Virus record (IMG/VR): IMGVR_UViG_3300010391_000129
Span: 1-39,396 of that record
Source of the DNA: a virus
DNA: 39,396 nucleotides
Reading direction: 5' to 3' (one strand)
Shown: one piece after another, positions 2,767 through 34,459 of the stretch
How positions within the stretch are numbered: the first letter of the stretch is position 1
Layout: every line of letters begins with the position of its first letter
The notes under the pieces: model-generated
The model's database searches: none
Seen by the model: the letters and a program-made list of their open reading frames with translations, nothing else
Told to the model about the DNA's origin: nothing
Program-made: the position numbers and the translations under genes

Positions 2767-3387
2767 TTACGGATCTATAATCACACTTTCAACTAGACAA
2801 TTATCACGCCAAGAAAGAATCTTGACATTAATCGACTTGTTTGGTGCTAAATCGTTTATTGTCCATTCTTCTACGTTACCAATGTCAACAATGCTGAAAT
2901 CAAACCCACCTCCCACATATCCGTAAAGAATAGTGTTGTTTGTTACATCGTTTCCGTTAGCCCATTGAACACGAACTGAATCCTCATCAATCCTATCAAC
3001 GTGCCTAAATGCTGCTGGTTTCGTTAAAATCCCATTACAAGTAGATTCGTTGTAGCTACCGCTTGTTACTTCTGGCGGATTGCTTGGTTCAGGTGTCGGA
3101 GTCGGACAACCTTCTTCAGTCTGTTCACAGGGAATGGGTGAAGGGGAAGGAGTTGGTGTCGGAGTTGGTGAAGGACTTGGGCTGGGTGTGTTGCATGGCC
3201 CCAAATAGTCTCCATGTGCCAAATGTGCCAGAACTGCCGATAAATTAACCGATAACGTCAAGTCGGGATTGCTTATAGTATGGCAAATTGTAATCTGCGG
3301 ATTAAAAGTTGCGTTGGCTTGTGTTGCAAAAGCCAATCCACCTACTAAAAGGAAAAGTCCTAATACTATAGAAATTATTTTATTCAT
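2767..3387 (-). CDS. Secreted protein with Cys region, Pro/Ser/Thr linker and Fn3-like C-terminus
   Basis: A 206-residue protein. Residues 1-26 form a clear Sec signal peptide ending near ATQANA. A short Cys-containing region follows (ICHTISNPDLTLSVN, then AHLAHGDYLGPC), then a linker of alternating Ser/Thr and Pro (about 68-86). Residues about 105-206 look like a beta-sandwich of fibronectin type III style (VRVQWANG, WTINDLAPN). This region and linker style is frequent in Patescibacteria, mainly Microgenomates. The start has a very strong Shine-Dalgarno, AGGAGGTGA, that doubles as codons of the upstream gene, with ATGA overlap. A surface or superinfection role is inference. Confidence 0.75.
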   Translation of the reverse strand: MNKIISIVLGLFLLVGGLAFATQANATFNPQITICHTISNPDLTLSVNLSAVLAHLAHGDYLGPCNTPSPSPSPTPTPTPSPSPIPCEQTEEGCPTPTPEPSNPPEVTSGSYNESTCNGILTKPAAFRHVDRIDEDSVRVQWANGNDVTNNTILYGYVGGGFDFSIVDIGNVEEWTINDLAPNKSINVKILSWRDNCLVESVIIDP

Positions 3388-21941: not shown

Positions 21942-22454
21942 TTAAGAGGTAAATTTCAAGCCTTTGTTCCAAGAGGGTTTGCCACGTCGGGCTGACCATA
22001 GTTTTTCCATACGTTCATTAGAGTATTCTTGAACCCCATGTTTGTTTTTATTCCACGGAACTTGACCCTTATTAGCTTGACTAATACGTTGTTTTTTAAT
22101 ATCCGAAGATGGTTTAGTTGTATAACCAAATTTATCCCTATTCCAAGGAATATTCCCTTTCAAGGCGATAGCATTAGCTAACCCAATATTCTTTTTATGT
22201 GCTTCAGTTAATGTAGTTCTTTGTTTATTTAGAATTACTAGGTTTTGTCCTAAGCCATCTTTAAGAACATGACAACGGCGACAAATAGGCTCCCAGTCAC
22301 TTTCTTCTAATAAGTAAAAGCCACTATTATTAGATAAATCTAATGGTTTTTCTTCATTACAACGCACACATTTTTTCGGTTTCTTAATAGTTGCTCTTGC
22401 CCATAAATGGGCTCTTTGATAATGCTGTGCACTTACATTCAGTGTATCATTCAT
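21942..22454 (-). CDS. HNH-type homing endonuclease with NUMOD3 repeats
   Basis: About 170 residues. A Cys-rich HNH-like core: CVRC, then W-x-PICRRCHVLKD. Three NUMOD3-like DNA-binding repeats follow (TEAHKKNIGLANAIALKGN; IKKQRISQANKGQVPWNKNK; RMEKLWSARRGKPSWNKG). The ATG at 22454 is preferred over 22460 because a -10 box ends exactly 6 bases before it. It has its own promoter and sits right after the terminator that follows capsid exon 2. An endonuclease beside an ORF-less group I intron suggests that it moves that intron. Nuclease call is sure; its target is inferred. Confidence 0.85.
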   Translation of the reverse strand: MNDTLNVSAQHYQRAHLWARATIKKPKKCVRCNEEKPLDLSNNSGFYLLEESDWEPICRRCHVLKDGLGQNLVILNKQRTTLTEAHKKNIGLANAIALKGNIPWNRDKFGYTTKPSSDIKKQRISQANKGQVPWNKNKHGVQEYSNERMEKLWSARRGKPSWNKGLKFTS

Positions 22455-22460
22455 GGTCAT

Positions 22461-22489
22461 ATTATATCACGCAAAGCCCCACAATGCAA
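22461..22489 (-). promoter_or_regulatory. Promoter of homing endonuclease, TTGCAT-N17-TATAAT
   Basis: Minus strand: TTGCAT (22484-22489), 17 bases, TATAAT (22461-22466) preceded by TG (extended -10), then 6 bases to the ATG at 22454. A near-consensus sigma-70-type site with a leaderless start. Confidence 0.8.
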
Positions 22490-22495
22490 ACCACT

Positions 22496-22520
22496 AAAAA
22501 ACCCTCTGATCAGGAGGGTT
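22496..22520 (-). terminator. Rho-independent terminator after capsid gene
   Basis: Stem AACCCTC / GAGGGTT (22500-22506 with 22514-22520) and, on the minus strand, a run of six T right after. It lies 32 bases past the stop of capsid exon 2 and isolates scaffold-capsid transcription from the homing endonuclease. Confidence 0.85.
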
Positions 22521-22551: not shown

Positions 22552-23676
22552 TTATTCGTCGTCGGATCTAAAATCTACTCCAAAAGCATCCATTTTGTTA
22601 CTTTAGCTATAAGCTAAGGTTAGGTCATTTCTGCCTAACTCTATATGTCGCCATATAGACCGGACTATATCTTCAACCTTTCTGGTTGCTTCGTGCATAG
22701 TCTCTACACCTTCCTTTAATTTCTTAAAGGCTCGGCTCGGTATTGTCTTAATTTTGTTAAGGTGTTCACCGAATTCTCGAAGTTTTAATACCGCCATGCT
22801 ATAATCCCAACGGTATTCGGCAAAGCCCCATAGCGCATCCGTAGTTGCAAGAGTACCTAAGTATTCCTGTTTGTACTGAAATTGCATTCGAGGTTTAAGC
22901 TGCATACCTAACGCAAATGCTTCCTTATGAAACAAAAGGTTATGTATCGTGTCAGAAGTTCCTGACTCCTCAGTCAAGTTGGTCGACATGTAAGTCTCAA
23001 GATTGTAGATAGTACCTACAAATCCATTTGGCCCAATACGTCTAACAACTGATCCGCCGTTTGCTAATCCTCCTGATGTTTGAACGCTTGGAACTATTCC
23101 AAGTGCATCAAAACGGGAGAACTTATCAATCTGCCGGATATGGGCTAATCCCGCCGGCTTAATGACAAAATATCGTTCTGTTTGAGGCGCATCAGCATCA
23201 TCAAGATACTGAATAGCCCTAACAATATTAGCGTCAGTTATATCGGTTGTTGCATTACCAACTGTTTGAGAAAGACCCGAGTAGAGTCCCGCTACGTCAG
23301 TATCAATTCTCTGACCAATAGCGTAACCTGCTTTACCGCTGTACTGCTCCATCAAGTTGTATTTAGATTGAGCCTTCAATCGGTCTTCAACCAAATACGA
23401 AGCTTCAAAGTGACGGTTAATGTTCATTGTGAACGCCGTCTCAGTTGGAGCATTCAAGGTAACTTGAGTATTAGCAGCTTTAGAATTAGCGGTTAAGTTG
23501 GAAACAAGTGGGACACGAAGCAAATCTCCACCGTCAGTTAATTCTGAATCAAATCTCTTAACAAGATTTGCAAGAACTAATGCGGCTTCTGTTGCACGTT
23601 GAGTTTCTCTAGACCATACTTCGGGCAAAAATACATCACCCGTAGTGATGGTCATATCTAATGTACCTAGTGGCAT
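22552..23676 (-). CDS. Major capsid protein, HK97-like fold, split by a group I intron
   Basis: Exon 1 is 22810..23676 (289 residues), exon 2 is 22552..22590 (12 residues); spliced length is 301. Segments typical of the fold: EVWSRETQRATEAALVLANL (helix after the N-arm), GDLLRVPLVSNL, YLDDADAPQTERYFVIKP, LLFHKEAFALGMQLKPRMQF, and the end LWGFAEYR joined to DAFGVDFRSDDE, a normal 'G.aeyRD.FGV' capsid C-terminus. Without splicing the frame runs 68 codons into the intron (TAA at 22603-22605), giving an odd basic tail. SD AGGTGA is 9 bases before ATG. Scaffold gene lies directly upstream. Confidence 0.88.
22591..22809 (-). ncRNA. Group I self-splicing intron in the capsid gene (219 nt)
   Basis: Minus-strand pairings: P1 exon 22817-22810 with 22794-22787, with the required U-G at the splice site; P10 22800-22796 with exon 2 at 22589-22585; P3 22782-22778 / 22693-22689; P4 22773-22768 / 22741-22736; P5 22761-22757 / 22751-22747; P6 arms 22730-22724 / 22719-22713 with GAAA loop; P7 22702-22697 / 22668-22663 with the AAGATATAGTCC signature; P8 22688-22684 / 22678-22674; P9 with GCGA loop (22659-22640); two more hairpins; terminal G at 22591. 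Splicing keeps the capsid frame. It encodes no endonuclease. Confidence 0.9.
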
Positions 23677-28201: not shown

Positions 28202-30084
28202 TCATTTAAAGGTGGTGGTGGTAATTCTTCTTGCAATGGTCCTTGTGGCATTTCCTGTGGTGCTTGTGGTGGTGCGCCCTGTGGAGGCATGCCTTGTGGA
28301 ACTTGAGCTTGTTGAGTCTGTTGAGCCTTTAATTGTTCCATTTGCATATCAGCCAAAGCTTCATCAGCTATTCTCGTAAATACATCCTCAGTATTTGGGA
28401 ATTCAATATTTTCAAGTAAAAATTTAAGTGGTAATCCAGCCTCTACAAGTTTAAAAAGTAGGTTCATTCTTGCCTCTTTGGTTTCACCAAGTTCACTCGT
28501 TACCGATACCTTAACATTATTATCGGGCAAAATATTACATACATCACAATACCCGCCATTATCTTCCATATAATATGCTTCTTGCTCTGTTTCAGGATTA
28601 ACAGGTAAAGTTTTCCCCATCCTACCCAATGCTTCCTGACCAATAATGGCAAACTTTTGTGGGCTCATCTGTGAGGGATTATTTTGATCTTCGACCTCCT
28701 CGTCCATAACTACACCATCCTTTTCAAAAAGTGAATACATTTTAAGAATCCACGCTGCTTCTTTAGCAAGTGCGTCTTCGAAATTATCCCTTAGGTCACT
28801 AATATTATTTGAATCTCCTAATTGTAGCGCCTCAATCGCAGCGCCGGATGTCACCCTTGCAGGAGTAGTACCCATGGATGCATCATGTTGACCACCAATG
28901 TCCTCAATATAATCATTAGCGTGACCTATCTGTTGAATTAAAGCAGGATTAATCGGAGGCGGACTTAAAGATGTTACTTGTTTACCGGGATTCTTTTCAA
29001 TAATTTGTCCTTCTTTAGCATAAATTACTTTAAACCCTGCGTTCTTATCTTTTATAAAACGTCCCCTATTTACTATATGGTTGTATTCTAAAAGTTGGGT
29101 TTCAAGTAAATTCAACATTCTTTGTGGTGAAATTACATGCTTCATATGTCCTTCGGGGAAAAGCTCATTGGGAGTAGTTTCCGATTCATATGCAATGAAT
29201 GGGTATTCCGTATAAGGTGTTTCTTCAAAATCTAATATACCAGTATCGGTGAAAGTGCATTTATTAATAAAGCCACCATTTTTATTCTGTTTAAATATCC
29301 GATACCAGCATTCCTTACCAATCATGGTTTCTTCGTCACCTGTTAAGGCTGAAGAATAAGTAGCGGGATAAAGAATTTGTAAAGACAAACGCTTATATTC
29401 GTCAGCAGCTATTTCATTATCAGGAATAATAAGTGATTCAGCCTTAGGGAAACGATGTTTCATGTATCCTACTGTTCTAACAAAAGTCTTAATAAGATAA
29501 GGAGCATCTTCTGCTTTCCCTGTTTTTGACCCTATTAAAAGATCAAAAGGATCTACCGTCCAGCGTATAGCAACCTTTTTCTTTGGATCATAACCGATTT
29601 GTCTCCATCCAATCCCATATTTAACACCATAATATACCCACTCTTTATTTATTCTTCTAAAGTTATTGAGTTGGTTATCTCTATCTAGGAGTTTTTGTGC
29701 TCGTCTTGCGTAAGTTCTGGCTCCTTCTGTAGATTCTGTAGGTTCAACTTCAATAGTTGGTTTATGTCTTGTTACAAACGCCCGGACTGCACGAAATGTT
29801 GAAAATATTTTATTGATCGGATAGTTAATGGTGTCGGAGCGTTGAGTAACAACTACCGTATTATCGTTAGGATTACCCCTGACATTATGATTTCCTCTGA
29901 GGAACTGATCGATTACAAACCATTCCCAATGTTTTTTGCGGGCTGCTTCATCTGAAAATGTATACCACCCTGTTAAGGTTGAAAGTGGTAATGCGCCCGA
30001 TTGCTCATAACCGGCATCTCCCATATCTTTTTTCTTGGGCGCGGCATAAGAAACTTCTTTTGGTTTATCTTTTATCTTAGGCAT
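28198..30084 (-). CDS. Portal protein (podoviral, P22-like)
   Basis: A 628-residue protein forming the dodecameric ring at the packaging vertex. Conserved segments: YPINKIFSTFRAVRAFVTRH (early helix), EWVYYGVKYGIGWRQIGYDP (wing region), ETQLLEYNHIVNRGRFIKD and DIGGQHDASMGTTPARVTSG, then NNISDLRDNFEDALAKEAAW, a typical P22-type portal helix. The C-terminus is Gln/Pro-rich (QAQVPQGMPPQGAPP) and probably disordered. SD GGAGATGG overlaps the last codons of the HNH gene, and the start shares ATGCCTAA with that gene's stop. Confidence 0.88.
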   Translation of the reverse strand: MPKIKDKPKEVSYAAPKKKDMGDAGYEQSGALPLSTLTGWYTFSDEAARKKHWEWFVIDQFLRGNHNVRGNPNDNTVVVTQRSDTINYPINKIFSTFRAVRAFVTRHKPTIEVEPTESTEGARTYARRAQKLLDRDNQLNNFRRINKEWVYYGVKYGIGWRQIGYDPKKKVAIRWTVDPFDLLIGSKTGKAEDAPYLIKTFVRTVGYMKHRFPKAESLIIPDNEIAADEYKRLSLQILYPATYSSALTGDEETMIGKECWYRIFKQNKNGGFINKCTFTDTGILDFEETPYTEYPFIAYESETTPNELFPEGHMKHVISPQRMLNLLETQLLEYNHIVNRGRFIKDKNAGFKVIYAKEGQIIEKNPGKQVTSLSPPPINPALIQQIGHANDYIEDIGGQHDASMGTTPARVTSGAAIEALQLGDSNNISDLRDNFEDALAKEAAWILKMYSLFEKDGVVMDEEVEDQNNPSQMSPQKFAIIGQEALGRMGKTLPVNPETEQEAYYMEDNGGYCDVCNILPDNNVKVSVTSELGETKEARMNLLFKLVEAGLPLKFLLENIEFPNTEDVFTRIADEALADMQMEQLKAQQTQQAQVPQGMPPQGAPPQAPQEMPQGPLQEELPPPPLNE

Positions 30085-30460
30085 TCCATCTCCTATAATT
30101 AACTATACGACTTACATTACATTGATGAATACTAAATAGTTGAGCTATTTTAGGTTGATTCAATTGTTTTGTTCTATATAAATTTCTTATTTCTTCTATT
30201 TGTTTATTATTAAGTTTTGTTACTTTGCTTCTATGAATATTCTCTTGGGCTGTAACAGCTTCTAAATGCAAAGGGTTTACACATATTTTATTCCGACATA
30301 AATGATCTATTTGCCAGTTTTTAGGTATCTCACCTTTATATTTTCTGTAAAAATACCTATAAGCAGCCATATTCGGATAGCCATTGTCCATAATTTTGCC
30401 AGTCCAAATCCAGCAATTATTACTTATTATTTTATAATTAGTTTCCCAGACTTTCGGCAT
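30077..30460 (-). CDS. HNH endonuclease with C-terminal helix-turn-helix (free-standing)
   Basis: A 127-residue protein. NNCWIWTGKIMDNGYPNM and AYRYFYRKYKGEIPKNWQID lead to the HNH core IDHLCRNKICVNPLHLEAVT (His, Asn, His in order). The C-terminal 45 residues (QIEEIRNLYRTKQLNQPKIA, LFSIHQCNVSRIVNY) form a helix-turn-helix for target recognition. It lies between a membrane protein gene and the portal gene, overlapping the first by 23 bases and the portal by 8, as though inserted at their junction; AATGCC flanks both ends. Confidence 0.85.
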   Translation of the reverse strand: MPKVWETNYKIISNNCWIWTGKIMDNGYPNMAAYRYFYRKYKGEIPKNWQIDHLCRNKICVNPLHLEAVTAQENIHRSKVTKLNNKQIEEIRNLYRTKQLNQPKIAQLFSIHQCNVSRIVNYRRWNA

Positions 30461-33298: not shown

Positions 33299-34071
33299 TG
33301 GTTTCGATTATGATACCAACTACTATCGGGGGTTTAATGCATTTGGCAATATTAATGCCACTTTTATCCGAGGAAAAAGATTGCGAGATAATTATAATTG
33401 ATAATGCTTCTCGTGACGGGACATGCAATTATCTTTCACAATATGAATGTACTATTAAAGTTAATAAAAATAACTTAGGTTTTTCTAAAGCACATAATCA
33501 AGCAGCTAAAATTGCTAAGGGTGAATATCTCTTACTTTTAAATAATGACACCCGTATTACCCCGGGATTTATTAGTGAAATGATTAATACTTTTGAATGT
33601 GATCCTAAAATTGGTATAGTAGGTTGTCTTATCTACACAATGGATAATCCCAAAAAAGTCCAGCATGCAGGTATTTGTTTTACCCAAGACTATGTACCAT
33701 ATGAATTAGGCCTTGAAATACCATCTATCTCACCGGGAATTCCCGTTAATGATGATCGTGTTCGCTCTGTACGACCAGTTCCTGCGGTAACTGCCGCTTG
33801 TATGATGGTTAAACGTGAGGTTTGGGATGCAGTTGGGGGACTTGACGAAGAATATATTAATGGCTGGGAGGATACCGATTTTGTACTTAAAGCCCGTGAG
33901 TTAGGTTATAAAGTCTGGTATACAGGCAACACTCATATCTTTCATAAACACTTTGGATCAGTAAATGCTGGCCGTTTTAAACATGAACAAGCAAATCGGG
34001 CAAGATATGATGATATTTGGGTTCATACAGGCAGGGCGCAAGCAGCATTGAAAGGATGGCGCAATGGGTAA
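33298..34071 (+). CDS. Glycosyltransferase family 2 (rhamnosyltransferase-like), GTG start
   Basis: A 257-residue GT-A enzyme. DNASRDGT (35-42) is the nucleotide-binding loop, NNDT (82-85) the DxD equivalent, then MMVKREVWDAVGGLDE and GWEDTDFVLKARELGYKVWY, and HIFHKHFGS. This order is typical of the WbbL/rhamnosyl-type GT2 group. Start is GTG overlapping TAG of the upstream gene, 6 bases after AGGAGA; the frame extends upstream but without a better site. First glycosyltransferase of the island. Donor sugar is not determined. Confidence 0.9.
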   Translation: MVSIMIPTTIGGLMHLAILMPLLSEEKDCEIIIIDNASRDGTCNYLSQYECTIKVNKNNLGFSKAHNQAAKIAKGEYLLLLNNDTRITPGFISEMINTFECDPKIGIVGCLIYTMDNPKKVQHAGICFTQDYVPYELGLEIPSISPGIPVNDDRVRSVRPVPAVTAACMMVKREVWDAVGGLDEEYINGWEDTDFVLKARELGYKVWYTGNTHIFHKHFGSVNAGRFKHEQANRARYDDIWVHTGRAQAALKGWRNG

Positions 34072-34459
34072 TGCTAATCGTGAATATTATTTAAAAAATA
34101 GAGAAAAGATTTTAGAAAAAGGAAAGATTTATTATCAACTCAATAAAAAACGCCTTTACCCTACTAAATTAGCCTGGCAAAGAAGGAATAAAGACAAAAC
34201 GAAATTATATCGATCAAGAATTACCACCGAGAAAAAAACAGAATATAAATACACCTATAGAAACAAAGATGTGGAAAGGCGTAAAGCACACTATAACTTA
34301 ACTTATCATGTAAAAGTTGGCAATATAAAAAAGGACTTTTGCATTGAATGCGGTGAGACAAAAGTGCAGGGGCATCATTATCTTGGTTACGCTAAAGAAA
34401 ACCAATTAAAAGTTTTATGGCTTTGTGATTCCCACCACAGAAAGGTGCATTATGCCTAA
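34064..34459 (+). CDS. HNH endonuclease inserted in glycan operon
   Basis: A 131-residue protein. A basic helical N-terminus (REYYLKNREKILEKGKIYYQ) as in many free-standing phage HNH enzymes, then CIECGETKVQGHHYLGYAK and KVLWLCDSHHRKVH, the Cys-supported HNH core. It overlaps the upstream glycosyltransferase by 8 bases and the downstream methyltransferase by 8 (shared ATGCCTAA), so it sits exactly at the gene junction. Likely a selfish homing gene rather than part of glycan synthesis. Confidence 0.85.
   Translation: MGNANREYYLKNREKILEKGKIYYQLNKKRLYPTKLAWQRRNKDKTKLYRSRITTEKKTEYKYTYRNKDVERRKAHYNLTYHVKVGNIKKDFCIECGETKVQGHHYLGYAKENQLKVLWLCDSHHRKVHYA

Follow-up and report, generated by a model that had tools for sequence, protein, structure and literature searches.

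The major capsid protein (MCP) gene on the minus strand of the window, the whole 39,396-nucleotide stretch of phage DNA analysed here, is interrupted near its 3' end by a group I intron (22591..22809, minus) of 219 nt that lacks an ORF and very probably splices at exactly these ends. Splicing as such is regarded as near-certain by analogy, the activity being taken from what is known of the group I family, and removal of the intron would correct the predicted C-terminus of the phage capsid protein.

Group I intron and its boundaries

A match to the group I intron model RF00028 was found on the minus strand at 22873-22641 with 63.8 bits (E 4.6e-14) against a gathering cut-off of 50 bits. It spans the full model (1-253) and is the sole Rfam match in the window, and a second, separate search with the RF00028 model gave 62.7 bits. 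The match bears out the sequence-only reading, in which a group I intron was placed towards the end of the MCP gene. The 5' boundary given by Rfam is a loose fit in the P1/P2 region and the exact ends were taken from P1, P10 and the terminal G, which reproduce the coordinates of the earlier reading to the nucleotide.

P1 is formed between the end of exon 1, AAUACCGU (22810..22817), and the internal guide sequence GCGGUAUU (22787..22794) through seven Watson-Crick pairs and a U.G wobble involving U22810 at the splice site. The adjacent P10 guide segment AGCAU (22796..22800) makes five base pairs with AUGCU of exon 2 (22589-22585), and the terminal G of the intron is G22591. P3, P4, P5, P6, P7 (GACUAU/AUAGUC), P8 and P9 are each present and paired in the intron. 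On the same minus strand, the P7 5' strand GACUAUG lies at 22696..22702, J8/7 with the P7 3' strand (GAAGAUAUAGUCC) at 22662..22674 and the P9 hairpin (UCUAUAUG/CAUAUAGA) at 22640..22659, followed by two further hairpins, GUUAGG/CCUAAC and UUAGCU/AGCUAA, at 22603..22639. P2 was not seen in the intron, nor does anything large separate the P7 5' strand from the P3 3' strand. The intron region folds into a more stable structure than dinucleotide shuffles of it (z -3.4), with 2 of 200 shuffles folding as well. A blastn comparison with phage records returned 72 records in which the core matches known phage introns. A pattern search for another occurrence of the intron's 3' domain found none.

Once transcribed, the intron would fold into a group I ribozyme in which an external guanosine bound in P7 would attack after U22810 of the P1 U.G pair. 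The 3' OH of exon 1 would then attack after G22591 under the guidance of P10 and join CGT to GAT, and the mature mRNA would encode a capsid protein of 301 aa.

The capsid C-terminus

As read unspliced, the MCP reading frame runs on the minus strand from 23676 to 22603 and encodes 357 aa. Exon 1 (22810..23676, minus) consists of 289 codons ending in AEYR; it matches PHROG 267, a family of major head proteins (E 1.3e-29), and is 69-78% identical to the relatives L001-L003. Exon 2 (22552..22590, minus) consists of the 12 codons DAFGVDFRSDDE and a stop, and identical or near-identical tails occur in L001, L002, L009 and L011. The intron interrupts the gene after codon 289, where it separates the Arg from the Asp of a motif conserved at the C-terminus, and its removal joins AEYR to DAFGVDFRSDDE, giving a predicted 301-aa product that ends in AEYRDAFGVDFRSDDE. 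The predicted spliced junction in DNA is GAATACCGT|GATGCTTTTGG, with the codons CGT|GAT. Because the intron begins with T and exon 2 with G, any shift of the junction would alter the product.

MCP homologues were collected from IMG/VR, and the C-terminus was readable in 31 loci (L008-L038), some of which are near-duplicates of each other. The insert is absent from all 31, each of which has a short tail, with the proteins running on for only 11-13 codons beyond the aligned part of exon 1. The end of L011 is identical to the predicted AEYRDAFGVDFRSDDE over 16 residues, and those of L009 and L012 are nearly so. Even homologues with no more than 30-36% identity keep Arg-Asp or Arg-Ser at the junction (for example IRDDHGV and NRDTSGV), and one locus, L036, has Arg-Asn. 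The junction predicted from these homologues agrees independently with P1, P10 and the terminal G, and the in-frame join to a normal capsid C-terminus proposed in the sequence-only reading is thus upheld. None of the seven close relatives (L001, the same as L008; L002, L012; L003, L014; L009; L010; L011; L013) has an intron in the MCP gene. The L003 record has a sub-threshold RF00028 match of 16.7 bits, located away from the MCP gene.

The basic tail of the unspliced frame is the intron itself read in the exon frame, amounting to 68 codons with a pI of 9.5. This frame is open for 68 of the 73 intron codons and runs through the ribozyme core. An equally long open frame in the same frame was obtained in 0.1% of dinucleotide shuffles (p about 0.001), a value that serves only as a guide since the shuffle ignores the conserved sequence of the ribozyme. 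An early in-frame stop is usual in phage introns; it is missing here, so that ribosomes could enter the core, and among about a dozen phage introns inspected only the upstream frame of the window crosses P7.

Two readings in which the tail is translated were weighed. According to one, the insert is retained, the MCP is truly a protein of 357 aa with a 68-residue basic tail, and the resemblance to a group I intron is a degenerate relic. The long open frame, matched by so few shuffles, is what this reading would explain, but the ribozyme retains all its core helices together with an intact P1, P10 and terminal G, the tail occurs in none of the 31 homologues and a domain search placed no Pfam family above cut-off on it, and we consider the reading extremely improbable. 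The tail was likewise rejected as a true capsid domain, nothing having been found in its support. The other reading accepts that the intron splices and supposes that some mRNA is purposely left unspliced, so that a minor form of the capsid protein carries a basic extension at its C-terminus. It would account for the basic character of the tail and for the upstream frame through P7 that sets the window apart from the other inspected introns, although the tail derives trivially from the ribozyme helices, and the window is a single sequence with no second intron at the R|D site in which conservation of the frame could be compared; its chances appear slim. The corresponding proposal that selection keeps the intron frame open, so that a spliced 301-aa and an unspliced minor 357-aa capsid protein would both be made, is likewise held to be quite unlikely. 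If true, the selected open frame would make this a phage structural gene with regulated retention of its intron. Splicing of the intron, with a 301-aa product, is the preferred reading.

The region downstream of the capsid gene

The MCP stop codon is followed by a terminator-like hairpin (22500..22520, minus), and a similar hairpin occurs at the same place in L001. Next comes a weak sigma-70-like promoter match, TTTGCA-18-TATAAT (22461..22490, minus), promoter-like sites being no more frequent here than in shuffles, which lies just before the gene of a putative free-standing HNH-like/NUMOD3 homing endonuclease of 172 aa (21942..22460, minus). This gene starts 91 nt past the MCP stop, while the intron itself contains no endonuclease ORF. 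The N-terminus of the 172-aa ORF is HNH-like and rich in Cys, and the ORF also contains a NUMOD3 motif; in Pfam it passes NUMOD3 only (25.1 bits) and matches no HNH model, and its homologue in L014 scores below the HNH cut-off (14.9 vs 21.4 bits). A small zinc-ribbon-like gene comes after it. Two more HNH-like endonuclease ORFs are found in the window, at 30077-30460 (minus) and 34064-34459 (plus), one of which immediately precedes the portal gene and the other lies among glycosyltransferase/methyltransferase genes.

The same slot 3' of the MCP gene holds an HNH-like/NUMOD3 ORF 36% identical to that of the window in L003 (L014), a LAGLIDADG+NUMOD3 ORF in L002 (L012), and is free of endonuclease ORFs in L001 (L008), L009, L010, L011 and L013. 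Two kinds of endonuclease gene have thus landed at the MCP 3' flank, once together with an ORF-less intron. A peptide-word search found no relatives of the 172-aa ORF in viral contigs, and a search of phages found none; the relative in L003 came to light only when the MCP flank was read.

When a free-standing enzyme cuts at an intron site, the layout is called collaborative homing (PMC3984707, PMC10448857). When a co-infecting relative lacks the intron, the NUMOD3/HNH-like enzyme encoded in the window may cut its allele, and repair would then copy the intron and the endonuclease gene together. Such homing is plausible because an intron-less phage has a relative of the endonuclease gene in the same place, and we put the role proposed for this neighbour at about an even chance. 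The presence of the related gene in L003 without an intron also means that the two are not strictly linked. Hence it is a serious possibility, falling somewhat short of even, that the endonuclease gene is unrelated to the intron and that such genes simply tend to land at the MCP 3' flank: both L002 and L003 have endonuclease genes there without an intron, and endonuclease genes generally cluster near capsid genes (PMC10448857). On the other hand, homing of an ORF-less intron requires some endonuclease, and the Lysinibacillus phages LysYB1/LysYB2 have both elements as well. With its varying endonuclease genes and one intron, the MCP 3' end offers a natural test bed for the partnership between introns and free-standing endonucleases.

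In the L002 record, the large terminase gene (L040, 550-2694, minus) is a single frame of 715 aa, into which about 265 residues are inserted in frame between NDHL and CDVLRYI. The insert is intein-like, starting with CFCRHTKILT and ending in VIVSN before a Cys, and no Hint domain was reported in it by Pfam.

The sequence-only reading had also remarked on the case of a Patescibacterium host. This is left unsupported, as neither the MCP alignment nor the portal alignment found a relative in 84,980 bacterial and archaeal genomes scanned by a peptide-word method, which misses distant relatives. Hits in phage collections are distant and come from phages of many different hosts.

Capsid introns in other phages

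Exact matches to a 17-base word taken from around P7 were found in 17 IMG/VR contigs. In at least ten of these (eight distinct) the intron lies in an MCP gene, and PHROGs identified a major head protein in eight of the nine downstream exons scanned (L053, L055, L057, L059, L060, L061, L065 and L068); L062 and L066 nearly duplicate L060 and L061. The RF00028 cut-off was passed in L055, L060-L064, L066 and L068, L065 lay outside the Rfam scan, and the assignment of the other contigs comes from the 17-base word and a core read by eye. The introns of L055, L060, L061 and L068 are group I introns in MCP genes of the same family (phrog_267) as that of the window, but they are inserted in the N-terminal part, before PDITINDYEIGQ, and some apparently carry an HNH ORF. 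This N-terminal site is apparently shared by the phrog_267-type MCP genes of L055, L060, L061, L062, L066, L068 and L069, the intron of L069 being recognised by the core word only; an HNH ORF is apparently present in some of them and absent in others.

These counts indicate that small group I introns are frequently housed in the capsid genes of uncultured phages, where automatic gene callers misread them as split or extended capsid genes. Given that phage capsid introns are both published (PMC3706429) and common in IMG/VR, the novelty that the sequence-only reading attached to such an intron was overstated. The intron of the window is of a known and frequent kind at a new insertion site, namely the conserved R|D codons, which is hereby recorded for a large capsid family.

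Splicing of the MCP intron of mycobacteriophage LittleE has been proven by RT-PCR and protein sequencing (PMC3706429). Like the intron of the window, it has a U before the 5' splice site and a terminal G (PMC3706429), whereas it occurs in another capsid family at another site, is about 820 bp long, contains an endonuclease ORF, and meets a stop codon after 30 bp (PMC11855218). The lactococcal phage Tuc2009 is cited in PMC3706429 as having a group I intron in a capsid gene; going by that description, the two are alike as capsid group I introns and the phage group differs. Small introns with a similar core are found between two capsid CDS in Pelagibacter phage HTVC120P and in the split capsid genes of the uncultured phage KM23-C739. 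Both phages differ from the window in being T7-like and in their insertion sites. The evidence for HTVC120P comes from blastn only, with the stretch below the Rfam cut-off. KM23-C739 (L007) has two RF00028 hits (2443-2623 and 3152-3332) at two annotated capsid CDS.

In LysYB1/LysYB2 (OP628075, OP628076), as in the window, the intron is situated near the MCP 3' end with an HNH nuclease gene next to it, and the 3' domain of the LysYB1 intron is 81% identical to that of the window. The differences are a length of 327 nt, another capsid sequence and site, and an early in-frame stop. This group I intron is unannotated (L049, 2261-2587; L052 in LysYB2), scores 58.2 bits with RF00028, and is entered for 43 nt by the annotated MCP ORF. 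Joining after CTATACGGGGT and before ACCAGTTC gives a plausible MCP end, and the annotated MCP C-terminus in OP628075/OP628076 is probably wrong.
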